Shown here in pieces: positions 28,247 through 61,300 of a stretch of 64,000 nucleotides of DNA. This stretch comes from Melioribacteraceae bacterium. GTDB lineage: Bacteria; Bacteroidota; Ignavibacteria; Ignavibacteriales; Melioribacteraceae. Position 1 is the stretch's first letter; every line of letters starts with the position of its first letter. Under the pieces are notes generated by a model. That model saw nothing but the letters and a program-made list of their open reading frames with translations. It did not search any database and was not told where the DNA came from. A program made the position numbers and the translations under genes. The DNA lies in the NCBI GenBank assembly GCA_011525875.1, contig WYBN01000001.1:1-64000 (forward strand), in the 5' to 3' direction.

Positions 28247-29304
28247 TAACTATTTCCCTTATTGTTTTGATTTATAATTTTTTCAAGCTCTGCGATTTTT
28301 TTTGTAAGCATTTTAATTTTTAATGCGTATTCCGGAAGGCTTCTTATGTGAGCTTCCTGTCTCAAGCTTTCACCCAATTCTTTGGCAGGGTAACCGAAAT
28401 ATTTTCCGGCTTTGGTAATGCTTTTCGAAACGCCTGATTGTGCCCCGATTAAAACTCCGTCAGCTATTTCAATATGACCCGTAATACCAACTTGCCCGCC
28501 AAAGATACAATTCTTTCCTATAATAGTGCTTCCTGCTATTCCTGTTTGTGCAGAGATTGCAGTATTCTCGCCTATTATCACGTTATGAGCTATTTGAACA
28601 AGATTGTCGATCTTAGCGCCGCGTTTAATAATCGTTGAACCTATAGCAGCTCTGTCAATTGAAACATTCGACCCGATTTCAACGTCATTTTCTATAATTA
28701 CATTTCCGATCTGAGGAATTTTATCATATCCGCCTTCTTTGCGAGGTGAGAAACCAAAGCCATCCGAACCTACAACGGTATTTGAGTGAATAATCACATT
28801 ATCGCCCACTACAGTGTTTTCACGCAAAGTAACATTTGGATAGATCAGAACATTGCTTCCGATAGTGCTGTTACGCATTATCACGGTGTTGTGGAAAATT
28901 TTTGTTCCGGCGCCGATTGCACAATTTTTTTCAATTACCACATTTTTTCCGACTGCGGTATTTTTACCGAGCGTAACTGATTGATCTATGTCGGAGGTGT
29001 TATCAATTCCTTCCAGATCGAGTGATTCCGTAAAAAATTGGAGTATGACTTTTTGAAATGCATTGTTGGGATTATCAACTTCGATATAAGTTAAGTCAGT
29101 GCGGTCTTTTGGAAATTTTGCACTTAGAAGTACTGCAGATGCTCTTGTGGTAGATAAATGTTTCTGATATGCCGGCAGATAAAGAAATGTTAAATCGCCA
29201 GGCTGTGATTCCTGAATCTTTGAGACATTAGAAATTATACATTCTTCGTCTCCGATAATTTTGCCGCCGACTAAGTCGGCGACATCTTTCACTTTTATTT
29301 TCAT
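28246..29304 (-). CDS. lpxD: UDP-3-O-acylglucosamine N-acyltransferase
   Basis: The 352-residue protein has an N-terminal LpxD uridine-binding domain (MKIKVKDVADLVGGKIIGDEE; LTFLYLPAYQKHLSTTRASAVL) and a long hexapeptide-repeat helix (about 105-300). It includes VVGSDGFGFSP, IAHNVIIGENTAISAQTGIAGS with the catalytic His, and GGQVGITGHIEI. A helical C-terminus follows. It adds the N-linked acyl chains of lipid A, acting after LpxC, the next gene. Confidence 0.97.
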   Translation of the reverse strand: MKIKVKDVADLVGGKIIGDEECIISNVSKIQESQPGDLTFLYLPAYQKHLSTTRASAVLLSAKFPKDRTDLTYIEVDNPNNAFQKVILQFFTESLDLEGIDNTSDIDQSVTLGKNTAVGKNVVIEKNCAIGAGTKIFHNTVIMRNSTIGSNVLIYPNVTLRENTVVGDNVIIHSNTVVGSDGFGFSPRKEGGYDKIPQIGNVIIENDVEIGSNVSIDRAAIGSTIIKRGAKIDNLVQIAHNVIIGENTAISAQTGIAGSTIIGKNCIFGGQVGITGHIEIADGVLIGAQSGVSKSITKAGKYFGYPAKELGESLRQEAHIRSLPEYALKIKMLTKKIAELEKIINQNNKGNS

Positions 29305-29310
29305 GAAATT

Positions 29311-29814
29311 TCATTTTAGTTTTTCAAGAACGAGGTTTGTAATATCATATTCCTCTTTCGCATACAAAAATAATATATCTCCGCTTCTATCAAAAACAAA
29401 ATCTAAGTTTTCTTCTTTGGCTACTTCCTGAATTAAATTAAAAAGTTTGTTTTGAACGGGCTTCATCACTTCTTCCTGGTTCTTAAACAATTCGCCGTTA
29501 ACCCCGAATTTTGCCTGTCTGTATTTGTTTATGTCATCTTCCAGCTTAATTAATTCTTTCTCGATCTCAACGCGTTTTTGTTCACTTAATATCATTTTTC
29601 TTTTTTCGTAATCATCGTACTTTTTTTTGAATTCGCTTTCCATTTTGCTTAATTCTTCCTGCCACTCGTCAATCAAAGCGTCAAGTTTTTTTTGAGCGTC
29701 CTGCGCATCGGTCATCTGTTTCAAAACTGTGTCGGAATCAACATATCCAATCTTCAGTTGAGCGGAAACGCCTATGTATAAAAATAAAAGAAATAAAAAA
29801 GTCAGCCGTTTCAT
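29311..29814 (-). CDS. OmpH/Skp-family periplasmic chaperone (copy 1)
   Basis: The 167-residue protein has a signal peptide (about 1-18), LKIGYVDSDTVLKQM at the mature start, a highly charged coiled-coil middle (about 40-110, KKLDALIDEWQEEL onward), and NLDFVFDRSGDILFLYA near the end. This is the OmpH/Skp layout, whose trimers hold unfolded outer membrane proteins in helical tentacles. It neighbours a second, related copy and bamA. AAGGGGG lies before the ATG. Confidence 0.9.
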   Translation of the reverse strand: MKRLTFLFLLFLYIGVSAQLKIGYVDSDTVLKQMTDAQDAQKKLDALIDEWQEELSKMESEFKKKYDDYEKRKMILSEQKRVEIEKELIKLEDDINKYRQAKFGVNGELFKNQEEVMKPVQNKLFNLIQEVAKEENLDFVFDRSGDILFLYAKEEYDITNLVLEKLK

Positions 29815-29832
29815 TTTAAGCCCCCTTAATGA

Positions 29833-30354
29833 TTATTTTCCTCTTTTAAGCTTATCAAGCACTTTAAAAGTAAGGTCGAATTCAGAATCGGCATAGAGAA
29901 GAAGAACTTCGCCGGTTTTATCGAATATGAACTGCATACCTTCCTCTTTAGCGACTTCGCTGATTGAAGCCAGAATTTTTTCTTTAACTGGAGCAAGAAG
30001 CTCTTCATTCTTTGTATATAATTCGCCGCCCGGTTGTCCGAACTTTTCCTGTTCAAATCTTTGTATTTGCTGCTGCATCGCAAGAAGCTGCTGCTGTGTT
30101 TCGCGCTGCTTATCAGGCGTCATCATTTCCTTTTGTTTATCATAGTCCTGAAAAGATGTTTGCAATGACGCAACCAAACTATCTCTGGTCTTAGTCCATT
30201 TCGATGCAAGAGCATCCAGATCGCTCTGCGCTTTAATCGCCGGAGGATACTGAGCTAAGATAACCTGCGAATCGACATATCCGATTTTTTGATTCTGCTG
30301 AGCAGAAGCAGCGATAGCTGTTATAAAGAAAAATAATAAAACAAGATTTTTCAC
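29833..30354 (-). CDS. OmpH/Skp-family periplasmic chaperone (copy 2)
   Basis: A second OmpH/Skp protein, 173 residues when started at GTG 30354. GAGG lies 5 bases before this GTG, and the signal peptide (VKNLVLLFFFITAIAASA) begins there; a longer frame to 30417 would overlap bamA and hide the signal. The body shows KIGYVDSQVILAQYPPAI, a Gln-rich coiled coil (about 50-110), and MQFIFDKTGEVLLLYAD. It is clearly paralogous to the following gene. The tandem pair may form different or mixed trimers. Confidence 0.9.
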   Translation of the reverse strand: MKNLVLLFFFITAIAASAQQNQKIGYVDSQVILAQYPPAIKAQSDLDALASKWTKTRDSLVASLQTSFQDYDKQKEMMTPDKQRETQQQLLAMQQQIQRFEQEKFGQPGGELYTKNEELLAPVKEKILASISEVAKEEGMQFIFDKTGEVLLLYADSEFDLTFKVLDKLKRGK

Positions 30355-30380
30355 GTTAACCTCATGTATTTTGTTTGTTG

Positions 30381-32879
30381 TTAGAATCCTTTGCCAAATT
30401 GAAAATGAAATAACCATTCCGGGTCTTTACCATCAACCGATTTGCGGTCGAAACCGTAACCAAAATCAAAGCCGATTAAGCCAATGGGATTTATAAGCAG
30501 CCGTGCACCGACGCCGATAGACCTTTTCAAGTCAAAAAAATCAGCATCCTGAAAATTCTTATAAATATTTCCTGCCTCTGCAAACAGTAAAACATAAATC
30601 GGCATTGGTTCGAGAGTTAGAGCAGCCCTGATTTCAGCAGAATATTTTGTCATCACACGTCCTCCCAATTCGAAGCCTGTATCGCTTAGCGGTCCGATGC
30701 TTCTATCGGGATAGCCGCGAAGGGGGGTGGTCGCTATTACCAGACCATTTCCGCCCATAAAGTAAAACTCGAAAGGCTGAATAGCAGTTGATTTTGTAAG
30801 TTCATCAAGATAACCCATCTCCGAGCCGATATATAAAGCGAGCCGGTTTGTATTGAATAATCTTCTGTAAAAGTCGGTTCGAAATTCGAGTTTATAGTAA
30901 TCAACATTTCCAGGAAGGAAAGGGCCTCCGGATAATTCCGCATTGAATAAAATCTTTGAACCCTGTGAAGGGAAGACCGGGTTGTCAATATCATTTCGTG
31001 AGATAGTTGCACCTAAAGTATACTGCCTCGATAATCCTTCGCTGTAAAAGCTTCTTCCATCAATAACATCATTATATTGAAATCGCGCTTTGCCCTGAAT
31101 ATAAAAAAATCTATCGGGCCAGTTTAATCTACGCCCTACTCGAAGCGTAATTCCCGACTGTTGAAGATCGTAAACATATCTTTGGCGCGTATCGAACAGA
31201 TCGAACCCGAGAGATGTAGGGGTATCGTTAAACCAAGGTTCTGTGAAACCCAAAGAAAATGTACGGTAATAATTTCCCACTCCGAACTGCCAGTTGAAAT
31301 TAAAAATTTGGCCTGCTCCCATACTAAAAGGTTCTGCAAGCGAAAAGTTTGTTAGCGTAACTCCGACGGCTCCGCTGAAACCGAAACTGCCGCTGTATCC
31401 GATTGAAGCATTCAGATAATCGCTTGATTTCTCTTCGACATTATAAATCAAATTTACAGTGCTGTCGTTTGCGAGCCTCGTGTCAATACCTTTTGAATAT
31501 AATTTTTCTACGTTGAAATACTGGAGATTTGCCAGCTGTTGAAGACTGCTGAAGATGTAGTTTCTGCTGAAATAATCGCCGGGCAAAGTATAAAGCTCCC
31601 TCCTTATTACTTTATCCATTGTTTTCGTATTTCCGGTAATTTCTACTCTGCCTACTTTAAAGCGGTTATTTTCTCTAATGGTTATATGAATATCTAAGGA
31701 ATCCTCGGCAATGCGTTCTTCTTTTGCATCTAAGTTAAAAGTTAAAAAGCCGTTGTCTTGATAAAGCGAGGAAACATCCGTCTGTTTTTCGTTAAACCGC
31801 AAATTAGTATTGAATCTTTCATAATTAAATATATCACCTTTTCGAAAATCTAATCTTTCCGAAAGAGCCTCGTCGGAATAAATAGTGTTTCCTATCCAGA
31901 AAATATTCCTTACTTTGTATTGCGGACCTTCGTACAAATCTAATTCAATCTCAACGTGTTTTTTGTTGTTAGTATAAATTAAAGTGTCCCGCAAAATTTC
32001 AAAATCACGGTAGCCGTTTTTATGATAGAACTTTTTTAACAGTTCCTTGTCCTTCTCAAAATCCTCTTTGTTCAGTTTAGATGAGCTGAATATTTTCCAC
32101 CATGCATCTTCGGAAGTTTCATCAAACTCGCTTTTCAATTCGCCTTCATCAAAGGCTTCGTTACCGTTAAATCTAATTTTCTTGACTATAACCTTGTCGC
32201 CTTCATCAATATCGAATTTTACTAGAACGCGGTCTTTAATTTTATCAATCATATTAGACGTGGTTTTTGGATCGTAGTCGTATTTAGTTTTATAAACATC
32301 CGATAAATCCTCTTCGTTTCTCCAGGTAACTTCAATCTCCTTTTTTAAAGTATCGGCTTTATAAAATTCCATAATCGAGTAAGTGATTGTGGCATTTAGA
32401 AATCCATCTTTCTCATATAAAGCTTTGATCTGCGAAATGGTTTTAAAAATTTCATGAGTTCTGAGTATCTGTCCTTTTCTAAATGGAATTTCTTTTTCAA
32501 TATCATCTTCATCAATTTCGTCAAAGCCTGATATTATATGCTGTTCGAATCGCGGGTATTCATCAACTTTTATAAGAAGAAAAACGCCGTTATCCAATTT
32601 CTTATCAATAACAATCTCAATATCGGGAGTGAATAAATTTAAATTCCACAGCCTTTTAATAGCATTTAAAGTTTGATCACCTGGTATCTCAATTTCATCG
32701 CCAACTTTAAGCCCGCTGTTGGCAATAATGGTCGAAGCATCGGCGGTTTTGTTTCCTTCGACTGAAATTCCCAAAATCTTAAAATTCTTCCTGCTCAATT
32801 GAGGATAAACGCTGCTTGAAAAAAGAATAATCAAGATCAGAGAGTATTTAAGCAATTTGTTTAGGTCGTTTTTCGACAT
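30381..32879 (-). CDS. bamA: Outer membrane protein assembly factor BamA
   Basis: The Omp85-family protein is 832 residues from ATG 32879, with a signal peptide (to about VYPQ), five POTRA-like repeats (about 30-430; FKILGISVEGNKTADAS, VGRVEITGNTKTMDKVIRRELYTLPGD) and a 16-strand barrel. The barrel includes the family ATTPLRGYPDRSIGP (lid/L6 region, here LRGYP) and ends WLFHFQFGKGF with the terminal Phe of a beta-signal. BamA folds and inserts outer membrane proteins. A TTG 16 codons upstream is in frame but lies deeper in uppS; the ATG gives a clean signal peptide and still overlaps uppS by 32 bases. Confidence 0.95.
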   Translation of the reverse strand: MSKNDLNKLLKYSLILIILFSSSVYPQLSRKNFKILGISVEGNKTADASTIIANSGLKVGDEIEIPGDQTLNAIKRLWNLNLFTPDIEIVIDKKLDNGVFLLIKVDEYPRFEQHIISGFDEIDEDDIEKEIPFRKGQILRTHEIFKTISQIKALYEKDGFLNATITYSIMEFYKADTLKKEIEVTWRNEEDLSDVYKTKYDYDPKTTSNMIDKIKDRVLVKFDIDEGDKVIVKKIRFNGNEAFDEGELKSEFDETSEDAWWKIFSSSKLNKEDFEKDKELLKKFYHKNGYRDFEILRDTLIYTNNKKHVEIELDLYEGPQYKVRNIFWIGNTIYSDEALSERLDFRKGDIFNYERFNTNLRFNEKQTDVSSLYQDNGFLTFNLDAKEERIAEDSLDIHITIRENNRFKVGRVEITGNTKTMDKVIRRELYTLPGDYFSRNYIFSSLQQLANLQYFNVEKLYSKGIDTRLANDSTVNLIYNVEEKSSDYLNASIGYSGSFGFSGAVGVTLTNFSLAEPFSMGAGQIFNFNWQFGVGNYYRTFSLGFTEPWFNDTPTSLGFDLFDTRQRYVYDLQQSGITLRVGRRLNWPDRFFYIQGKARFQYNDVIDGRSFYSEGLSRQYTLGATISRNDIDNPVFPSQGSKILFNAELSGGPFLPGNVDYYKLEFRTDFYRRLFNTNRLALYIGSEMGYLDELTKSTAIQPFEFYFMGGNGLVIATTPLRGYPDRSIGPLSDTGFELGGRVMTKYSAEIRAALTLEPMPIYVLLFAEAGNIYKNFQDADFFDLKRSIGVGARLLINPIGLIGFDFGYGFDRKSVDGKDPEWLFHFQFGKGF

Positions 32880-33681
32880 TTTGGTTATGGTTGGATTTTG
32901 GGGATATTTGTTCGCTGACAAGTCCAAATCTTCTCTCTCTTTTTTGAAAATCAGTTATTGCTTCCAATAATGTTTTGTAATTAAAATCCGGCCAAAGAGT
33001 ATTGGAAATAAATATTTCTGAATATGCAATCTGCCACAATAAATAATTGCTTATTCTAAATTCACCGCCACTTCTTATTAGTAAATCCGGGTCTGGTAAT
33101 TGACCGGTGGATAGAAAGTTAGAGAACAACTCTTCATTAATATCCTCTCTTGTGATTTGCTGCTTCGAATGAGCATCCACTAATTTTTTAACAGCTTCTA
33201 ATATATCCCATCTGCCGCTATAGCTTAGGGCTAAATTTAGAGTCATCTTTTTATTGCCCATGGTTTTTTCGATAGCGTCAAATAATTCTTCCCTTACAAT
33301 ATCAGGCAGCTTGTCAATATCTCCAATTGTAGTCAATCGAATATTATTTGCATGCAGTTCATCAGTTTCATCGTGCAAACTCTTAACAATTAATCTCATT
33401 AAGGTTGAAACTTCATTCTTAGGTCTTTTCCAATTTTCCGTAGAAAATGTGTAAAGGGTTAAGACCTCAACCCCTAAATTTGTGCATGTTTCAACGACTT
33501 CACGAACAGTTTCGATTCCGCGCTGATGACCCGCAACTCTGGGCAAACCTCTCTTTTTTGCCCATCTGCCGTTACCGTCCATTATTATTGCTATATGCTT
33601 GGGGATATTACCCTTTTTCTTTATTTCGTTTATTTCTGCTATAATTTTGGATGTTAAATACTTACTCAAATCCCAACTCAA
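32848..33681 (-). CDS. uppS: Isoprenyl (undecaprenyl) diphosphate synthase
   Basis: The 277-residue cis-prenyltransferase makes the C55 lipid carrier for peptidoglycan and O-antigen. Motifs: HIAIIMDGNGRWAKKRGLPRVAGH with the catalytic Asp, YTFSTENWKRP, and DPDLLIRSGGEFRISNYLLWQIAYSEI. It is the first gene of the long envelope operon, just behind a canonical promoter. The C-terminal tail (PKSNHNQNVEKRPKQIA) is an extension overlapping bamA. Confidence 0.97.
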   Translation of the reverse strand: MSWDLSKYLTSKIIAEINEIKKKGNIPKHIAIIMDGNGRWAKKRGLPRVAGHQRGIETVREVVETCTNLGVEVLTLYTFSTENWKRPKNEVSTLMRLIVKSLHDETDELHANNIRLTTIGDIDKLPDIVREELFDAIEKTMGNKKMTLNLALSYSGRWDILEAVKKLVDAHSKQQITREDINEELFSNFLSTGQLPDPDLLIRSGGEFRISNYLLWQIAYSEIFISNTLWPDFNYKTLLEAITDFQKRERRFGLVSEQISPKSNHNQNVEKRPKQIA

Positions 33682-33701
33682 ATAATTTTTTACAGACTTC
33701 T

Positions 33702-33730
33702 AAAATAGCCCTCAAGCAAAGTAATGTCAA
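33702..33730 (-). promoter_or_regulatory. Predicted promoter of the uppS-bamA-lpx operon
   Basis: On the minus strand TTGACA (33730-33725) and TATTTT (33707-33702) are 17 bases apart, placing transcription start about 15 bases before the uppS ATG. It drives what looks like a 20-kb envelope operon. The spacing and -35 match those at prs and lexA. Confidence 0.6.
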
Positions 33731-33831
33731 GAATCAAAAGTCCGCACTATTTTCTTGTTACTGTTGCCAGTTCGTGGGTTTATACAATGGAATTAACTAT
33801 TTGTGTCAGGAAAAATTGATGAATTGAAAAA

Positions 33832-34212
33832 TTATTCGGGAAGGGTAACGATTTTTATATTCTCGACATTTTCTGACGGAAGCTGCAAGAGTAGATCACG
33901 AACTTTTTCGAGTAAATTTCCTGGAACACCCAAGAACAATTTCACCTTGGATGAGGAGTATTTTGTATTTCTGGAAGATAGATATTTGATTTTATTCAGA
34001 GTTTTAGGATTGTCTAAATCTTCTTTATTTAATATCAATCCTATAACATATTTCTTTTTGTATTTACCGATTGCATCTACGTCATATTTCCCGATTGGAT
34101 TAGGGGAGGGCAGATACTGCCCGTGCTTTCTGCTAACGGTTAAATAACCATCTTTCCAGAAATGATTGATCAACTTGTCTACTCTGTCCTTATGTGAGAT
34201 CATCTTTTTCAT
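33832..34212 (-). CDS. Unknown small protein resembling a degenerate PD-(D/E)XK nuclease, lexA operon
   Basis: A 126-residue protein with no signal peptide. An N-terminal helix (HKDRVDKLINHFWKDGYLTV) precedes YLPSPNPIGKYDVDAIGKYKKKYVIGLIL, which looks like the core strands of a restriction-endonuclease-like fold, where D-V-D-A-I-G would be followed by an E-x-K strand. Here that strand reads Y-V-I-G-L, so the catalytic Glu and Lys appear to be lost. LFLGVP and a C-terminal helix follow. It is the third gene after lexA (5 bases after the WYL-like gene) and probably shares its damage control. The fold is an inference from pattern only; it may be unrelated to nucleases. Confidence 0.55.
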   Translation of the reverse strand: MKKMISHKDRVDKLINHFWKDGYLTVSRKHGQYLPSPNPIGKYDVDAIGKYKKKYVIGLILNKEDLDNPKTLNKIKYLSSRNTKYSSSKVKLFLGVPGNLLEKVRDLLLQLPSENVENIKIVTLPE

Positions 34213-34217
34213 TTTAA

Positions 34218-34466
34218 TCAGCTTGCAATCGGTAGAATTGGAATAATTGGCGAAAATCTGGTTGTTCCCAGAACTCGAATATTGAAAATTTTCGCATATT
34301 CAAATATTGAAACTTCTGATGAATTGTTTTTTCTGCCAAATAAGACTTTTTTCCCATGCCTGTCCCTGCTTATGTAATACGGTTCGATAATAATTTCATC
34401 TAGTCCGTACAAAAATCTTAGTTTTCTTCTGCATCTAATGGCGTTTGAGAATATTTCACTTTTCAT
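34218..34466 (-). CDS. Small WYL-domain-like protein, lexA operon
   Basis: The 82-residue protein reads like an isolated WYL fold without its usual HTH. It has an N-terminal helix AIRCRRKLRFLYG, then DEIIIEPYYISRD with the strand pattern Y...(I/V)EPY, VLFGRKNN, and a last helix EYAKIFNIRVLGTTRFSP. WYL domains bind nucleotides or nucleic acids and regulate DNA repair and defence genes. AAGGAGG is ideally placed before the ATG. It lies 20 bases after lexA on the same strand. A role in the DNA damage response is inferred from position and fold impression only. Confidence 0.6.
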   Translation of the reverse strand: MKSEIFSNAIRCRRKLRFLYGLDEIIIEPYYISRDRHGKKVLFGRKNNSSEVSIFEYAKIFNIRVLGTTRFSPIIPILPIAS

Positions 34467-34486
34467 TTCAATGCCTCCTTAATTAA

Positions 34487-35116
34487 TTAAAACCATCTAA
34501 AAACACCCAATGCCTTCCCTATAATCGTAAAGCTTTCTGAATTGTTAACCTCGATTGGAGCGTAATTCTTATTTTCCGGTATTAAATAAATAATATCGTT
34601 TACTTTTTTGTATCTCTTTAATGTTGCTTCATTTTCGAGAAGAGCAACCACAATATCCCCGTTAAGAGCATGGTTTTGCGGACTTACTATAACAATGTCC
34701 CCATCAAAAATTCCGGCTTCAATCATACTGTCACCACGAACTTTTAAGCCGAACGAATCCGAACGGCTTTTTAATAAACTTGCTTGTAAAGTTAAAGAGC
34801 CTTCAATATTCTGCTCAGCAAGAATGGGCTGCCCGGCAGCGACTCTGCCAACTACAGGTATTTCAACAACTTCTTCGGAAATTCGGTTTCGTCCAGATGC
34901 AAGCTCTGTAAGTGATATGGTTCTACTTGCATTAAACTCATTGTTCAAATAACCTTTTTTAGACAAAGCATCAAGATGACGTTTCACCCCGAATGTGCTT
35001 GATATTCCAAAATTCTTTCCGATTTCTCTATATGTTGGGGGATAGCCGTTGAATTCAACAAAGTCCTGTATAAATCGCAGGATGTCAAGTTGTCGTTCTG
35101 TAGGTTTTGTTTTCAT
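34487..35116 (-). CDS. lexA: LexA repressor
   Basis: The 209-residue SOS repressor has an N-terminal winged helix (TERQLDILRFIQDF, GYPPTYREIGKNFGISSTFGVKRHL) and a C-terminal self-cleaving peptidase. The scissile bond is Ala94-Gly95 in VGRVAAGQPIL, the nucleophile Ser130 in GDSMIEAGI, and the base Lys167 in EATLKRYK. RecA filaments trigger autocleavage and derepression. Two palindromes over its promoter indicate autoregulation. The ATG has no clear Shine-Dalgarno site, unlike the strong site of the next gene, so its translation may be weak. Confidence 0.96.
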   Translation of the reverse strand: MKTKPTERQLDILRFIQDFVEFNGYPPTYREIGKNFGISSTFGVKRHLDALSKKGYLNNEFNASRTISLTELASGRNRISEEVVEIPVVGRVAAGQPILAEQNIEGSLTLQASLLKSRSDSFGLKVRGDSMIEAGIFDGDIVIVSPQNHALNGDIVVALLENEATLKRYKKVNDIIYLIPENKNYAPIEVNNSESFTIIGKALGVFRWF

Positions 35117-35125
35117 AATATTCTA

Positions 35126-35145
35126 TAGTGTTAATTTGTACACTA
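35126..35145. promoter_or_regulatory. Proximal candidate LexA operator (TAGTGT-N8-ACACTA)
   Basis: A 20-base interrupted palindrome with perfect 6-base arms, TAGTGT and ACACTA, and an 8-base centre. It lies 10 bases upstream of the lexA ATG and downstream of the -10 box, over the likely transcription start and 5' end. Its 19-base core (35127-35145) is the exact reverse complement of the core of the second copy. Confidence 0.7.
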
Positions 35146-35176
35146 CAAATATAGTGTACAAATTAACACTTGTCAA
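35146..35176 (-). promoter_or_regulatory. Promoter of the lexA operon
   Basis: On the minus strand TTGACA (35176-35171), a 17-base spacer, and TATATT (35153-35148) continuing to TATATTTG. It is the same type as the prs promoter. The spacer is filled by one operator and the next operator starts just after the -10, so repressor at either would block polymerase. Confidence 0.75.
35152..35171. promoter_or_regulatory. Distal candidate LexA operator (TAGTGT-N8-ACACTT)
   Basis: The second palindromic copy, with AGTGT and ACACT arms around 8 bases, sits between the -35 and -10 boxes of the lexA promoter. Its 19-base sequence (35152-35170) is the exact reverse complement of 35127-35145. Centre-to-centre distance between the copies is 26 bases. 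Confidence 0.7.
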
Positions 35177-35224
35177 GTTATTTTCAGTAATAGGATGGTT
35201 GTTGATGGTAAAATCTTCTTAAAT

Positions 35225-35250
35225 AAAAAAAAGCGGCTCATAAGCCGCTT
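35225..35250 (-). terminator. Rho-independent terminator of ilvE
   Basis: An 8-bp perfect stem (AAGCGGCT / AGCCGCTT) with a 4-base loop is followed on the minus strand by eight T residues. It lies 24 bases past the ilvE stop and insulates lexA from ilvE transcription. Confidence 0.85.
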
Positions 35251-35273
35251 CTGAAAAAGTTTACAATTTCATT

Positions 35274-36344
35274 TTAATCAAGAATTTTCATCCAGCCGTA
35301 ACGGTCTTTAATATGACCATATTGAATGCCGGTTATTTCGGAATAGAGTTTTTTGCCAAGTTCGCCGGCTTCGTCTTCACTAAATTTCATTTCCAAGTCA
35401 TTGTATTTGAGCCTGCTTAATGAAGATATAACAGCAGCCGTTCCTGTCCCGAATATCTCTTTCAATTTCCCGTTTCGATAAGCTGCAGCGACTTCATCAA
35501 TAGAAACATCGCGTTCAGTGATATTGTAGCCCCAGTCTTTAAGAATCTGAATTACAGAAAGTCTTGTAACACCGGGAAGTATTGATCCGGTTAATCTTGG
35601 TGTTACTACTTCATCCTCAAAGTGGATAAAGATATTCATCGTTCCAACCTCCTCAATATACTTTTGCTCAATGGCGTCCAGCCAAAGTACTTGTGAATAG
35701 CCGGCGGCTTTTGCTTCTCTTTGAGCCATTAGGCTTGCGGCATAATTTCCGGCGCATTTACAAGCTCCAACTCCTTTTGCTGCGGCTCTGACATATTTAT
35801 CGGTAACCATAATAGGGACGGGTTTAAAACCTTCCGGATAATACGGGCCGACCGGACTGAGCAGAATTGCGAACTTGTACTCCTCTCCGGGTCGAACCCC
35901 AAGAAAAGGATCTGTAGCGAACATAACCGGTCTGATGTACAAGGCATGTCCGGCTTTTGTTGGTATCCATTCGCGGTCAACTTTAACTAACTCGTCAAGT
36001 GCATGAAGCACAAAGTTATTATCCAATTCCGGCATACATAATCTTGATGCGCTGCTATTCATTCTTTCAATATTTTTATCAGGTCTGAAAAGACCGATTT
36101 TGCCATCTACTCTTTTAAAGGCTTTTAAACCTTCAAAAATTGCCTGACCGTAATGAAACACCATAGCAGCAGGACTAAAATCCATTTTACTTAGATTTCT
36201 GATAGTAGGATTATACCAGCCATTCTTTTTTGAACTATAATCCATTTCGAACATATGTGAGGAAAAAGTTCTCCCGAAAATCAAATTATCGGGCAGTTCT
36301 ACCTTACTTTCTTTCCTCTCGGTTTTAATTATTATTTCAGACAT
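35274..36344 (-). CDS. ilvE: Branched-chain amino acid aminotransferase
   Basis: The 356-residue PLP enzyme of fold type IV performs the last step of Val, Leu and Ile synthesis. It is the long BCAT form: FHYGQAIFEGLKAF, the PLP lysine in a GNYAASLMAQREAKAAGYSQVLWLD-type stretch before KYIEEVGTMN, and EIFGTGTAAVISSL near the end. AGGTG lies before the ATG and a strong terminator follows, so it is likely a single-gene unit. Confidence 0.95.
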   Translation of the reverse strand: MSEIIIKTERKESKVELPDNLIFGRTFSSHMFEMDYSSKKNGWYNPTIRNLSKMDFSPAAMVFHYGQAIFEGLKAFKRVDGKIGLFRPDKNIERMNSSASRLCMPELDNNFVLHALDELVKVDREWIPTKAGHALYIRPVMFATDPFLGVRPGEEYKFAILLSPVGPYYPEGFKPVPIMVTDKYVRAAAKGVGACKCAGNYAASLMAQREAKAAGYSQVLWLDAIEQKYIEEVGTMNIFIHFEDEVVTPRLTGSILPGVTRLSVIQILKDWGYNITERDVSIDEVAAAYRNGKLKEIFGTGTAAVISSLSRLKYNDLEMKFSEDEAGELGKKLYSEITGIQYGHIKDRYGWMKILD

Positions 36345-36515
36345 AAAGCACCTTTAAATTATAACTGGAGATGGACAAAATTAGTTATAAAAATTCTCAA
36401 ATGCTCTGATACTGTAAGTTGAAAAATTCTTCTATAACTTTATTTAGGAATCAAGAACGGCAACGAGGAAATAAAAGGTTATTTCATTAAGTTTGAGCAA
36501 TAATAATATTTCGAC

Positions 36516-37283
36516 ATGAAAATTCTTCAAAAATTAGGAAGCAGAATCTTATATTTTTTACAAGAAACCGGGCAGATATCCATTCTATTTCTTGAAATTC
36601 TCAAATCCTCTGGAAATTTAATTCGGAAAAGAAAACTTCTATTATTTCAAATAGAACACATCGGTGTAAATTCGCTTCCTTTAGTGGTTATTATTGCAGT
36701 ATTCACCGGCGCTGTTGCCGCTTGGCAGGCAGCCTATCAATTAAAAGGAGTTGCGCCGCTTTCATTTTTAGGAACAGCAACCAGCAGGGCTATTATCACC
36801 GAATTAGCACCTGTATTAACAGCAATAGTGATAGCGGGAAGGGTTGGGGCTTCCATTGCCGCAGAACTGGGCTCGATGAAAGTTACCGAACAAATCGATG
36901 CACTTGAAACAATGGGAATTAATCCTGTGATGTTCCTTGCAATGCCCAGGTTTTTCGCGGCAGTTTTTTCGATGCCGATTCTTGTCGTATTTGCAAATAT
37001 TATTGCTATTGCCGGAGCGTTTGTAATATCTAATTATTTTCTAGGAGTTTCTTATGAAGTTTTCTTCGATTCGGTAAAGCGTTATTTTTATATCGGCGAT
37101 TTTCTTTTCGGGATGACGAAAGGCGTCGTCTTCGGCGGTGTAACTGCTCTGATTGGCTGTCATATTGGTTTCAAAACTGAAGGCGGCGCCGAGGGAGTCG
37201 GGCTTTCAACTATACGCTCATTTGTGCTAACTTCTGCTTTAATTCTAATTATTGACTACTTCCTCTGGACACTAATTTTTTAA
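36516..37283 (+). CDS. mlaE: MlaE/YrbE-family lipid ABC transporter permease
   Basis: The 255-residue integral membrane protein has the MlaE family pattern: GVNSLPLVVIIAVFTGAVAAWQAAYQL, ITELAPVLTAIVIAGRVGASIAAELGSMKVTEQIDALETMGINP (read in parts), and five to six TM helices. It forms the permease dimer that exchanges phospholipids between membranes with an ATPase (MlaF) and an MCE protein (MlaD). Neither partner follows here; the next gene is a sugar transferase, so partners must be encoded elsewhere. No clear ribosome site precedes the ATG. Confidence 0.9.
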   Translation: MKILQKLGSRILYFLQETGQISILFLEILKSSGNLIRKRKLLLFQIEHIGVNSLPLVVIIAVFTGAVAAWQAAYQLKGVAPLSFLGTATSRAIITELAPVLTAIVIAGRVGASIAAELGSMKVTEQIDALETMGINPVMFLAMPRFFAAVFSMPILVVFANIIAIAGAFVISNYFLGVSYEVFFDSVKRYFYIGDFLFGMTKGVVFGGVTALIGCHIGFKTEGGAEGVGLSTIRSFVLTSALILIIDYFLWTLIF

Positions 37284-37356
37284 GACAAGCTGTATTTTTT
37301 GTTGCATTTCATTAATTACTTTTGCATTATTCGATTGAAATTTTATTAGAAAGGAT

Positions 37357-38199
37357 ATGAAGTATCATTTCGTTATAAAAAGAATTTTAGAGCTTCTTTT
37401 AGCGCTACTACTACTACCCGTTATTATAATATTTTTAGCAGCTGTATCAATAATACTTTTGTTTGAATTGAAGGAATCGCCTTTTTTTGTTCAAGACAGG
37501 GGATTGACACTTTCGAAGCATAGATTTTTTATGGTTAAGTTAAAAACCATCAGGACAAAAAAAAATGAAGAATTTATTGACGGCAGCAAGAACATTCTTG
37601 TTAAAACATATCTTGAATCTAGTCTCACTCCCTTTGCCAAATGGCTGCGAAGAACCGGGCTTGATGAACTGCCTCAAATATTTCATGTTATCACCGGAAA
37701 GATGAGTCTTGTCGGTCCACGCCCACTGATGCTATTCGATTTACAATTTATTGAGAAAAATTTTCCAGAGTTTTACCGACAAAGAGATTTATTAGGGTCA
37801 AAACCGGGAATTACCGGATTATGGCAAATATTCTGCAATAGAGAACAAGGAATTGAAAATCTTATTATTCTTGATGAACTTTACGAAACTGAAAGATCAT
37901 TCGTCGTAGACTTGAAAATCTTGTTGTTAACATTGGCAACATTATTTTCCGGCAGCAACGACGATGCAATAGTCAGTAACAATAATTCACTAATTAAAAA
38001 TTTTTCCTGGGTTCTTAGGAAAGCTAAAATTAAATATCGAACACTGTCGCAAAATTCCCTCGTTCTGTTAAGCCCGCATCAATTTGACAACAAAATTGAA
38101 ATTCCTTTCGATTGGTGGGAAAATACAAACTCCTATGAACCTTATGCATCCAATAAACACAAACTGAGAATATTTAGGATAGAAAAAAACTCAGCATAA
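37357..38199 (+). CDS. Bacterial sugar transferase (polyprenyl-phosphate glycosyl-1-phosphate transferase)
   Basis: The 280-residue protein starts with a re-entrant membrane helix (about 8-35) and has the PglC/WcaJ catalytic core: FVQDRGL, FFMVKLKTIR (usually F..-K-F-R-T/S-M), LRRTGLDELPQIFHVITGKMSLVGPRPLM and KPGITGLWQI. It should move a sugar 1-phosphate from a nucleotide sugar to undecaprenyl phosphate, the first step of a surface glycan. About 75 extra residues after the core (from 206) are polar with a WWENTNSYEPY patch and match nothing I recognise. No other glycan genes adjoin. AAGGA precedes the ATG. Confidence 0.85.
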   Translation: MKYHFVIKRILELLLALLLLPVIIIFLAAVSIILLFELKESPFFVQDRGLTLSKHRFFMVKLKTIRTKKNEEFIDGSKNILVKTYLESSLTPFAKWLRRTGLDELPQIFHVITGKMSLVGPRPLMLFDLQFIEKNFPEFYRQRDLLGSKPGITGLWQIFCNREQGIENLIILDELYETERSFVVDLKILLLTLATLFSGSNDDAIVSNNNSLIKNFSWVLRKAKIKYRTLSQNSLVLLSPHQFDNKIEIPFDWWENTNSYEPYASNKHKLRIFRIEKNSA

Positions 38200-38213
38200 T
38201 ATTTAGGTGAGAT

Positions 38214-39557
38214 ATGAAAATAATTTCTCTGATTATTTTCTCCTCTTGCTCTCTTCTTGCACAAGCTCTTCTTCTCGAGGAAAATTTTGAGTATGAATTA
38301 GGCGACCTTACGGGTTCCGTAAATTGGACTGCGAGCCCGACTACCGGTACGTCTGAAATCCAAGTTGTTGACGGTAATTTAAGTTATTCCGCATATTCAT
38401 CTTCTGACGTGGGCAGAATGATTTTTTTGGACGCTCCCGGCGGAAGCACTAATAGAAGAGGAGCAAAAAGGTCTTTTACTCTTACAAGCAGCGGTACAAT
38501 ATATATATCATTTTTAATCTTTGCTACTTCGACAGCGGAAATGAATACCAACGACACTGATGGAGATTACTTTTTTAATACAAGTAATTCCACCGGAGGC
38601 TCCTTAAAAAATATAATTAATGTAAAACAAGGAAGTTCAGGCGATAAATATAACATAGGTTATAGAAAAACTACATCTCAGACACCCACCTGGTATGGAA
38701 CAGAATTATCTGTTTCAACAACCTACCTAATCGTTGTTTCTTATACGTTTCAAACGGGCTCAGATGATATTAAGCTGTGGATAAACCCCTCATTGGATGG
38801 GAGTGAACCAGCAGCAGATATAGAAATATCAGACGGGGTTGATTATTCAGATATTAACTATGTGCAATTCAGACAGAATGCAAAATCCGGCGATTTTTAT
38901 ATTGACGGTATCCGCGTATCTGATTCGTGGTCGCAGGCTCCTCTGCCGGTTGAATTAATTGATTTTAATGCGGCGGTCATAGATAACAGTATTCGGCTAA
39001 GCTGGGCAACTGCCACCGAAACAAACAACTATGGATTTGAAGTGGAAAGAACCGCAGATAGGTTGAATGAAGGATTGCATAAATGGATAAATATCGGTTT
39101 TATACCCGGGCATGGAACTTCCTATTCCCCAAAGTTTTATGAGTTTTTTGACTACAATCCTCCTATAGGAAATCTTAAATACAGACTTAAACAAATTGAC
39201 CTTGACGGCAGTTATAAATATTACAACACATTTGCGGAAGTAACATTCGGTATTACAGACATCAAAGAAGAACAATTTCCAGGCGGATTTACATTATACC
39301 AGAATTACCCAAATCCTTTCAATCCAAAGACAACAATAAAATTCAGTATTAAAAGACAGCTCAAAGAGTGGAATAATACCTCGCTTAAGATTTACAATGC
39401 GCTGGGACAAGAAATAAGTTCACTATTAAATAAACAACTCCAAGCGGGAGAATACGAAATTGAATTTGACGCAAATGAACTGCCAAGCGGAATGTATTAC
39501 TACACTCTTAAATCAGGTGAATATACACATACGCGAAAACTTCTTTTGATTAAGTAG
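38214..39557 (+). CDS. Secreted T9SS type A cargo protein with LamG-like domain
   Basis: A 447-residue exported protein. A signal peptide (about 1-17, ending LLAQA) is followed by a jelly-roll region (about 20-240; LEENFEYELGDLTGS..W at the start and YIDGIRVSDSW at the end). Then comes an Ig-like module common before sorting tails (PVELIDFNA, SIRLSWATATETNNYGFEVER, LKYRLKQIDLDGSY). The last about 80 residues are a textbook type A sorting domain: LYQNYPNPFNPKTTIKFSI, LKIYNALGQEI, LPSGMYYYTLKSG, TRKLLLIK. The cargo is sent through the T9SS. The ligand is unknown; jelly rolls of this kind often bind glycans. It follows the sugar transferase by 14 bases. Confidence 0.88.
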   Translation: MKIISLIIFSSCSLLAQALLLEENFEYELGDLTGSVNWTASPTTGTSEIQVVDGNLSYSAYSSSDVGRMIFLDAPGGSTNRRGAKRSFTLTSSGTIYISFLIFATSTAEMNTNDTDGDYFFNTSNSTGGSLKNIINVKQGSSGDKYNIGYRKTTSQTPTWYGTELSVSTTYLIVVSYTFQTGSDDIKLWINPSLDGSEPAADIEISDGVDYSDINYVQFRQNAKSGDFYIDGIRVSDSWSQAPLPVELIDFNAAVIDNSIRLSWATATETNNYGFEVERTADRLNEGLHKWINIGFIPGHGTSYSPKFYEFFDYNPPIGNLKYRLKQIDLDGSYKYYNTFAEVTFGITDIKEEQFPGGFTLYQNYPNPFNPKTTIKFSIKRQLKEWNNTSLKIYNALGQEISSLLNKQLQAGEYEIEFDANELPSGMYYYTLKSGEYTHTRKLLLIK

Positions 39558-58359: not shown

Positions 58360-61300
58360 ATGAGTCTTAAGAAACTCCTTAATTTAAGTTTTGTACTTGT
58401 ACTCTTAACCGCTTTCCTTGTACAAGCTCAAACCTTTTATGTTAACAATCAAACGGGTAATGATGCTAACCCCGGCACTCAGGCTTTGCCTAAGTTAACC
58501 GTCGGTTCGGCTATTATTGCCGCCCCTCCCGGTTCAACAATTTCGGTTGAAGCTACCGGCATTAATTATACCGAGGGTAATATTACAATTAACAAAGCTT
58601 TAACATTTACCTCGACCAATACCGCAACTAATGGCGCACCGGTTTTTGTTAACGCTAATTTGATTGTTCAGGTTAATACAACGTTTACTAATATTTTCCA
58701 GTTTGTTGATCTGACTTTAACTGCTGGGACGGTAACGGGCGCTTCTAATCTGACATTCAGCGGTAATATTACAAGAACAGCCGGTACAGTTGATACACAA
58801 ATTAACTATACCGCCGGCGCCCACAATTTCCTATATGATGGCGGCGCTGCAATTACTTCCGGTTTTGAATTACCTGCTGAAGCTAACACAACTAATTTTG
58901 GAAATTTAACCACAACTGCCGGAACGAATTTGACTTTGAATTCCGGTAAAACAATTAACGGTATTATTACCACTGGCGGAACTCTTAACTTAGGCGGAAA
59001 TACTGTTACCGTTAATGGCGCAAATGCTCACGTTGTTGACGGAGATGTTTCAAATGGCACATTAGCTTTCACATTAACAGGAGCTGCGACAAGCATTGAC
59101 GGCGGCACAGCCGGACGCGCTCTTCCGAACATTACCGCTTCATCAACTACTGCGGGCAGAACTCTTACGATTGATCCTGCCGGCGCTTCTACCATTACTA
59201 ATGTCGGAAGCTTAACATCTAATACAGCCGCAAACATTACTACAAATAATACCGGAACGGTTGGCACTGTTACACTTAATGGTTCAGGTACAGTTAATGT
59301 ATTTAACGGCGGTTCAGTTGGCGCTGTAACCGGTTCTTCAGGCAGCACCGGCACAATTACTCTTGCAAATATTACTGCAGGCGCTGCAACAATTGCCAGC
59401 ATTACTCAATCAGGCACCGGCTTTATCAACTTTGTTGGTACTGCTGCAACATCAATTAATATTACAGGCAATGTTCTTTTGAACACTGCTTTTACATTAA
59501 CTAACGTTGCTTCTATTGGACTTGGAACAATCACTTTCCCTGATCTTGCAACAACAATCGGCGGCACGCTGACAAACTCCGCAGGATTTACTGGTTCCTC
59601 AACTTCAGCCGGAAATGCTGGAAATGGAAATATTATTTTTGGAAATATAACTACCACCGTTACTGTTACCGGCGCTACTACTAACAGCACCACCGGCGGA
59701 TATACTCTTTCGGGCGCGGGTGCTTTTACAGGCAGCGGTAGAATTACTTTTGCAACTACAACCGGCGCTTTGACATTTACCGGCGGTATTACAAACAGTT
59801 CTACTCTTAACGGTACCGCTCCTGTTGGCGATATTATCGCAGCAGGTTTAGGCGGAGCTGCTACGGTTAATTCAGGCGCTGTAGTTAACAGTTCTACAAG
59901 AGCGACAGCTCACATAGATTTTTCGAATTTAACTGGTGTTAATACAATAGCCTCGGTTTCATCCACAGGTTCAACCGGAGGCGATATTTTATTTGGTAAC
60001 GGAAACGTCGTAATTGCAGGCTCAGTTACTAACTCAAGAAGCGCTGCCGGCGCCGACATAGTATTCGGTACTGGCGCTACCGGCGGAACAACTGTAGCTA
60101 TTGCAAGCATAACAAATTCTGGCGCTTCTAATATTACATTCTTAAGCGTAAGCACAGGTAATGTTAACATTACTGGTTCGGTAAGCAATACTTCGAGCGG
60201 AACGATTTCTTTTACAAACTTGTTGACAGGAAATTTCACGCTAAACGGAACGCTTACAAATAGCGGTTCAGGCACAGTTACTTTCCCCGCTGTAACCACA
60301 TGCGTTGTCAACGTTGGCGGTATTTCCGTTAGCGCCGGCACGGTTAACTTTGCTGCTACGCAAACTGGCGCATTCAATGTAAATGGTTTATGGACAGTAT
60401 CCGGCGGTACGCTTAATATTTTAGGCGGCGGCGGCGCTGCTAATATTACTGTTTCGCAGGTTGTTACTTCTACTATAACCTGGACTGCCGGTACAATTAA
60501 CTTTACCGGTCGCCCAACAGTCAGCATAGGAAGTGCCGCAGTTTACATTGGCGGCGCTACAACTAATCCAACATTTACATCAGCAACAACGACTTTGAAC
60601 TTCACAGAGCCACTGCCAAACGTAGTTCAAACCATTTATGTAGGTTTGGCTAACCCGGTTTATCCAGGTCCTTTTACAATTACCAACCCTGCAAATATTC
60701 CGGCTCCGGTAGTAAGGTTCTTGCCTAACGGCGCTGCTTCAGCAAACTTATATGTACTTAATGACGTAACATTTAATACAGGCGCTATAGTTAATTCAGT
60801 TTTAATTGATGGCGTTAGACTTAATGTAGGAAAGAACGGACTTGGCGGCGGTAACGGTAACTTCCAGAATACAACCGGTTATACAACTGCTAACGGCGGT
60901 TATGTTATGATGTCCGGTACAACGCTTGCGCAAACCGTAAACGCTGGCGCTGCACCAAATGCAGGCGCTACATTCGGCGCATTTGGCGTTGACAACGAAT
61001 CCGGTATCATTCCGGCTGTTACCTTCACAAACGCAACATGCACATTTACAAATGACTTCTTCCTTGCTGAAGGTGATGTAAGCTTAGTAAATACACAATT
61101 CAGCGGAACAGCTCCTTGGCCGACTGTTTATAGAACTGAAGGTACTTTCACTACTGCTCCTACAGTCGCTGCCGGCACTATGATTAACGTGACTTATTAT
61201 GGATTTGATAAAGTTACTGCTCTTGAAGTCCCTGCCGGAGCTACATCGTTGAATAACTTAACTGTCTCAACTACAAACGGCGCTTTAGCGGGATTTGGCA

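Follow-up and report, generated by a model that had tools for sequence, protein, structure and literature searches.

The lexA operon of the Ignavibacteriales carries genes for a free-standing WYL-like protein and a PD-(D/E)XK-fold protein that lacks E-x-K

We analyzed a stretch of 64,000 nucleotides from a Melioribacteraceae bacterium (contig WYBN01000001.1, positions 1 to 64,000), referred to below as the window. Its minus strand carries a lexA gene (34487–35116) for a repressor of 209 amino acids with an S24 peptidase domain, here called LexA1. After 20 bases it is followed by a gene for an 82-aa protein (34218–34466) and, another 5 bases on, by a gene for a 126-aa protein (33832–34212). From their open frames and fold predictions, the two small genes encode a free-standing WYL-like protein and a PD-(D/E)XK-fold protein in which the E-x-K motif is missing, respectively. 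A preliminary description of this DNA had given a same-strand layout with these gaps and no intervening terminator. The frames lie exactly where it had placed them, and a terminator scan of positions 33600–35300 found no minus-strand terminator-like site in either intergenic gap. The downstream neighbor of the 126-aa gene is a frame starting at 33681, uppS-like as judged from its sequence, with a promoter-like site of its own (33730–33702).

LexA1 matched the TIGR00498 model with 215.9 bits (equivalog cut-off 110.95) and contains both the DNA-binding and the S24 domain. The cleavage site A94-G95 and the residues Ser130 and Lys167, assigned by motif, are present. The recognition region is distinctive and uniform, i.e., S40, T41, F42, G43, K45 and R46.

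A sequence scan located a sigma-70-type promoter of the operon on the minus strand (35148–35176; TTGACA-17-TATATT, 11 of 12 matches), together with two putative LexA1 operators. Operator 1, AGTGTACAAATTAACACT on the plus strand (35153–35170, PWM score 19.0), lies within the promoter spacer, and operator 2, AGTGTTAATTTGTACACT on the plus strand (35127–35144), found with the same PWM, just 3′ of the −10 hexamer. They are the best two PWM sites of the whole window and belong to an 18-base palindromic type, AGTG-NNCANNTGNN-CACT. Two such palindromes were present in 52 of 53 distinct regions upstream of lexA, a set that excludes the lexA of genome G004 (loci L011 and L059), and nearly all 53 had TTGACA and a TATATT-like −10 hexamer in the same layout. 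This is the layout of an autoregulated LexA promoter, from which we infer that LexA1 is the binder. LexA control of the two small genes is borne out by the operators at the promoter to the extent that control and damage induction of the operon are very likely. At one locus (L019, genome G027) the lexA operators were CTGTAC/GTACAG-like and not of the AGTG/CACT type; the 82-aa protein of the same genome is without the C-terminal tail described below. The third-best LexA1-like site of the window (59470–59487, score 13.1) was tied to no gene or promoter.

A stricter operator pattern missed the window's own sites. With a looser one, sites were few in each genome and in 7/7 did not outnumber those of a reversed-pattern control, so that the LexA1 regulon could not be built from the pattern. 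Upstream of a gene for the C-terminal half of DnaE, the looser pattern occurred in three of the seven genomes scanned. At recA, which 58 genomes have, neither a LexA1 operator nor that of a second LexA (LexA2) was found in any of the 30 loci inspected. With few sites and none at recA, the LexA1 regulon is therefore perhaps very small; judged from these sequence patterns it looks small, with its own operon as the sole target found nearly everywhere.

Of 58 relatives searched, 55 contain the 126-aa family and 56 the 82-aa family; a lexA scoring above the cut-off is present in 56. Wherever the 82-aa gene occurs (56/56 genomes), it lies directly 3′ of a lexA, and the 126-aa gene in turn always lies directly 3′ of the 82-aa gene (55/55). 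The order lexA–WYL–nuclease, which the preliminary description had named as a point to check across relatives, is thus strictly kept. At 53 loci that differ in their upstream regions, lexA is separated from the 82-aa gene by 1 to 38 bases; at the 51 of these where both small genes were measured, the gap between them is −4 to 87 bases. The lexA carrying the pair was the best-scoring copy in every such genome. These genomes have 38 further lexA copies above the cut-off, none of them accompanied by either small gene, a count that includes at least one partial hit (G025) and leaves out matches under the cut-off. The pair is missing from G028 (100% complete) and G033 (81% complete), and neither of these two genomes has a lexA over the cut-off; G028 retains recA and a umuDC-like pair. 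Genome G054 has kept lexA and the 82-aa gene and lost the 126-aa gene, and at locus L073 no 126-aa gene was found.

In nine pairs of related loci, where dS was unsaturated, dN/dS was 0.04–0.08 for lexA, 0.03–0.10 for the 82-aa gene and 0.11–0.19 for the 126-aa gene. All three genes are under purifying selection, and the constraint on the 82-aa gene is about that on lexA. Low dN/dS together with strict lexA linkage in the 58 relatives ruled out that the small genes are chance neighbors or decaying.

Both families were found in the same 31 of 197 genomes of a class-wide sample. In a phylum-wide sample of 395 genomes, the 126-aa family occurred in 39, all within Ignavibacteriales. The 82-aa profile matched in 51, i.e., in the same 39 as the small gene and in 12 as WYL domains within larger frames; all free-standing copies were confined to Ignavibacteriales. 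The 12 larger frames span 312–344 aa; 10 of their sequences were retrieved, and two of these, checked in Pfam, matched WYL at 3e-19 and 7.6e-20. Among 25 chosen genomes of the class, of which G028 and G033 belong to the order, 23 had lexA-type loci (30 loci), with neither family at any of them. The closest named relatives of the 82-aa protein are from metagenome-assembled genomes labelled Melioribacter, Ignavibacterium, Ignavibacteriaceae and similar. By their behavior, the pair are vertically inherited core genes of one order.

In a LexA tree, the pair-bearing LexA1 proteins form one clade (55 of 55, support 0.725, with L208 and L209 counted as LexA1). It adjoins four lexA genes that belong to other orders of the class; the other lexA copies of the order lie elsewhere in the tree. 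From this placement, the association of the pair with LexA1 would date back to near the base of the order. The gene that follows the four sister lexA genes is a dinB-like polymerase in two and an unrelated small gene in the other two. The products of the latter (L113 and L115; 79 and 89 aa) share a common C-terminal end and are unrelated to both families. Residue 132, next after the catalytic Ser-Met, is Ile or Val in 51 of 55 LexA1 proteins, compared with Lys or Arg in 29 of 40 other LexA.

Many genomes of the order have LexA2 with an operator of its own (L191–L206, L210), often beside repair genes; by sequence reading, its neighbors are DUF72-like, alkyltransferase-like, dinB-like and the N-terminal half of DnaE. 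The LexA2 operator TACCATACAAATGTATGGTA or a near variant was found at 12 of 17 loci, and the pair at none of the LexA2 loci. The DnaE N-terminal half adjoins LexA2 in L204, and in L178, L179 and L188 (position 1501) a LexA1-type palindrome is found where a gene for the DnaE C-terminal half only begins. A split damage polymerase composed of the two DnaE halves is possible.

The AlphaFold model of the 82-aa protein (15 sequences, mean pLDDT 85.9) consists of an N-terminal helix and five strands that form an Sm-like barrel. The best Foldseek matches in the PDB were PafBC, DriD, CapW and BrxR (E from 3.3e-3, TM about 0.7). DriD aligned with the model at Z 10.9 and an rmsd of 1.2 over 66 residues, and Hfq at Z 9.6, as expected of an Sm-like barrel. 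An hhalign comparison of the 82-aa profile with HTH-WYL(-WCX)-type proteins of other members of the phylum gave a probability of 95% over 67 columns (E 2.8e-8 for a single comparison). The Pfam WYL model (PF13280) matched weakly in 16 of 38 members (best E 0.0027), with the family not over the curated cut-off and no match in the window protein at E 5. YolD (PF08863) matched none of 38 members at E 1, and a PDB sequence-profile search found no relative of the family at E 1. The fold matches and the hhalign result thus support the free WYL-like domain proposed in the preliminary description; its term “fragment” does not hold, as the protein is a complete single domain of near-constant length.

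Binding of single-stranded DNA by PafB needs R181, Y196, R204, R208, R211 and R214, singly or in tested combinations (PMC11804915). We transferred these positions via a PafB alignment and the profile alignment; in the window protein they correspond to I25, K40, S49, S53, E56 and K59. For residue counts, identical proteins were collapsed, leaving 54 rows for the 82-aa and 51 for the 126-aa family. Among the 54 members, R181 is replaced mainly by Ile, Val or Phe, Y196 by an invariant Lys and R204 mainly by Ser or Thr. The position of R208 is Lys or Arg in 47/54 and Ser in the window, that of R211 is Glu or Asp in 48/54, i.e., with reversed charge, and that of R214 is Lys or Arg in 52/54. Hence two of the six positions are still basic in the family (R208 and R214) and one of six in the window protein; R181, Y196, R204 and R211 are lost. 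With four of the six not kept, the ligand sensing suggested earlier is doubtful, and with most of the PafB positions lost we set aside canonical sensing of single-stranded DNA as the main reading.

The net charge of the 82-aa protein is positive in 54/54. Its C-terminal tail F-S-P-I-I-P-I (residues 71–77) is near-invariant, modelled at low confidence and altered in G027. G054 and L073, in neither of which a 126-aa gene was found, both retain the tail; the partner of the tail is therefore probably not the 126-aa protein. At locus L108 (G007) the 82-aa gene appeared short, with the tail in another reading frame, indicating a frameshift or an assembly error.

The AlphaFold model of the 126-aa protein (13 sequences, mean pLDDT 92.7) arranges its helices and strands in PD-(D/E)XK order, with an α-β-β-β-α-β core of helix 7–20, strands 24–28, 47–51 and 54–60, helix 69–79 and strand 91–97. 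The best Foldseek match in the PDB was the archaeal repair endonuclease NucS/EndoMS (2vld; E 2.1e-3, probability 1.00), and others were XisH, BspD6I and nicking or restriction enzymes. VIA-align scores were moderate (best Z 8.3, with many PD-(D/E)XK proteins near 7 to 8). In a viral structure search, phage MmcB-like DNA repair proteins came out on top (E 3.6e-4, TM 0.51); the MmcB Pfam model matched none of 38 members, and a PDB sequence-profile search found no believable relative of the family. No Pfam or NCBIfam model scored above cut-off for either family. Weak matches of the two families to TP0453, YfmQ, AbiEii, ribosomal, RNase P and other profiles were set aside as chance.

The active-site strand is lost throughout the 126-aa family. 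D12 is kept in 49/51 and D46 in 50/51. We located the two places of the E-x-K motif by their spacing from D46 and by strand order. The place of the catalytic Glu (G58 in the window) is Gly in 51/51; at that of the Lys, mostly Thr, Val or Ile is found, with Lys outside the six commonest residues (49/51). The PD-(D/E)XK-like fold with a lost catalytic strand, which had been read from the window sequence, is therefore backed by the model and its matches to NucS/EndoMS and XisH, and the Gly at the Glu place extends it to the whole family. Other charged positions are invariant in type, with Lys or Arg at residue 50, Asp or Glu at residue 65 and Lys or Arg at residue 74 (each 51/51). The most conserved stretch, R28-K-x-G-x-Y-L-P-x-P37, is the loop between strands 1 and 2, and the net charge is positive in 51/51.

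We tentatively propose, at somewhat less than an even chance, that lexA and the 82-aa and 126-aa genes form an order-specific, LexA-autoregulated SOS operon, in which the two small proteins are accessory factors for tolerating or repairing damage. Cleavage of LexA1, triggered by RecA filaments on single-stranded DNA, would derepress the operon, and the two small basic proteins would be made along with new LexA1. The 82-aa protein, as a free-standing WYL-like barrel, could act as an adaptor, with its poorly ordered tail docking on a conserved damage-response partner, i.e., LexA1, the RecA filament or a translesion polymerase. For its part, the 126-aa protein, as a catalytically dead PD-(D/E)XK fold, would bind damaged, branched or single-stranded DNA without cutting it. 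By analogy, the biochemical role of the pair and the step at which it acts might resemble what YolD and UmuD do together with error-prone polymerases and what MmcB does as an SOS nuclease.

Several observations argue for this accessory role. Linkage is complete (56/56 and 55/55), and the pair and lexA are absent together. Two operators lie over the promoter in 52/53 regions, and purifying selection is lexA-like. The folds are nearest to regulators of damage or phage responses and to repair or restriction nucleases, and both proteins have a positive net charge. YolD and MmcB are precedents, a dinB-like gene comes next after lexA at two of the four sister loci, and the operator pattern precedes the DnaE C-half gene in 3/7 genomes. 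On the other side, the pair always accompanies lexA and is in no case linked to a polymerase gene, an arrangement that a LexA-directed role would explain equally well or better. The PafB positions are mostly lost, YolD and MmcB Pfam matches are missing, the PDB scores of the 126-aa protein are moderate, and LexA1 operator sites are few, with none at recA. Of the “SOS accessory or defence-linked module” first suggested for this locus, we hence retain the SOS accessory part as the best reading and drop the defence part.

The main rival to the accessory pair is a feedback role on LexA1, in which both proteins modulate the LexA1 switch by binding LexA1 or the RecA filament and so set the threshold, speed or shut-off of cleavage. 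We regard this as possible, though less likely than the accessory role. DinI and RecX tune RecA in E. coli in an analogous way. Linkage to LexA1 is absolute (56/56 compared with 0/38 for other lexA copies), and in G054 the loss of the 126-aa gene has left the 82-aa gene beside lexA. The tail kept in G054 and L073 points to a partner other than the 126-aa protein, LexA1 has few other sites and none at recA, and Ile or Val stands beside its catalytic Ser-Met (51/55) where 29/40 other LexA have Lys or Arg. However, a need for the LexA1 promoter could by itself explain a shared operon; moreover, accessory genes after lexA elsewhere are effectors, as in the Geobacter lexA-imuB-C-polY operon (PMC6511836). 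A bolder version, which we consider rather unlikely, is a self-contained LexA switch, i.e., LexA1, with its own operator and with its own operon as the sole target found nearly everywhere, would work only with two dedicated parts, a WYL-fold cofactor and a nuclease dead for cleavage, both of which sense the condition of the DNA and adjust LexA1 itself.

Other readings concern the proteins singly or their setting. That the 82-aa protein is a true sensor of single-stranded DNA like the WYL domains of DriD and PafBC, signalling to LexA1 or RNA polymerase, seems unlikely to us. Its nearest solved folds are indeed the WYL domains of DriD and PafBC with single-stranded DNA bound, its net charge is positive, K40 is invariant and K/R53 and K/R59 are conserved; but R181, Y196, R204 and R211 of PafB are not kept, R208 is Ser in the window, a helix-turn-helix and the WCX domain needed for the ssDNA tunnel are missing, and Hfq fits the model almost equally (Z 9.6). 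Catalytic residues are known to migrate within the PD-(D/E)XK superfamily, and the 126-aa protein might be an active nuclease whose catalytic acid and lysine have moved to the next loop and helix (D46 and residues 65 and 74). The conservation of D46 (50/51), an acidic residue 65 and basic residues 74 and 50 (51/51 each) is consistent with such a site; the canonical strand, however, has Gly at the Glu place in 51/51, the six commonest residues at the Lys place do not include Lys, and we think an active enzyme quite improbable. WYL domains and PD-(D/E)XK nucleases are common in defence loci, and the pair could be a WYL regulator with a nuclease-derived effector that came to lie behind lexA by happenstance. 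This is highly improbable. PADLOC gave no convincing match, only a weak one to WYL (E 0.024). Searches found no relative of either family on viral contigs, none of the 82-aa family in phages and none of the 126-aa family on plasmids, and no defence neighbors lie at 29000–39000 of the window. The position of the genes is moreover that of core genes inherited within one order (55–56 of 58 relatives).

LexA is among the best-studied repressors, yet a whole order has two uncharacterized families locked to it. If the pair tunes LexA or serves a polymerase, these would be new SOS parts, missing from the usual model organisms. With the 82-aa protein one could examine directly how a WYL barrel functions when no DNA-binding domain is attached, and with the dead nuclease whether PD-(D/E)XK folds serve as DNA readers. 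Should the self-contained switch prove true, it would be a LexA circuit with built-in readers of DNA structure beside RecA.

DriD, PafBC, CapW and BrxR are regulators of DNA-damage or phage responses. The 82-aa protein resembles their WYL domains in its helix and Sm-like barrel (DriD, Z 10.9), but is free-standing, without HTH or WCX. Its W-Y-L triplet is changed to K-K-V-type residues, the ssDNA residues are mostly lost and the F-S-P-I-I-P-I tail is added. A closer parallel in size is YolD, a small WYL-superfamily protein of Gram-positive bacteria that occurs in SOS operons with Y-family polymerases and is a proposed UmuD counterpart (PMC6511836, PMC4012209). Both are small single-domain members of the superfamily in an SOS operon; YolD, however, adjoins Y-family polymerases, whereas the 82-aa gene adjoins lexA and the YolD Pfam model (PF08863) matched none of 38 members. 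For the 126-aa protein the comparison is with MmcB of Caulobacter, an SOS-regulated PD-(D/E)XK endonuclease (PMC9578287). They share a small PD-(D/E)XK fold and, very likely, SOS control, and phage MmcB-like proteins were the top viral matches. In contrast to MmcB, the 126-aa protein has lost E-x-K, gave no MmcB Pfam match in 38 members and is encoded in a different operon.

Non-canonical LexA proteins of Bacteroidetes are SOS regulators, as reported in PMC8565304, which mentions neither “WYL” nor “Ignavibacter”. They belong to a related group, but LexA1 is canonical (TIGR00498) with its own operator. We recognized no published account of a WYL protein or nuclease fold in a lexA operon in the literature searched, which consisted mostly of papers free of subscription. 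For the operon as a whole, the nearest parallels are the lexA-imuB-C-polY operon of Geobacter, which also has two LexA proteins, and imuA-imuB-dnaE2 cassettes (PMC6511836). As in Geobacter, accessory damage genes share the lexA operon in the window and many genomes of the order have two LexA proteins; unlike there, the operon has no polymerase gene and its two small proteins are of other families. SOS accessory genes within lexA operons, mutasome genes among them, are thus known, whereas the combination of lexA with a free WYL barrel and a dead nuclease did not turn up in the literature searched.
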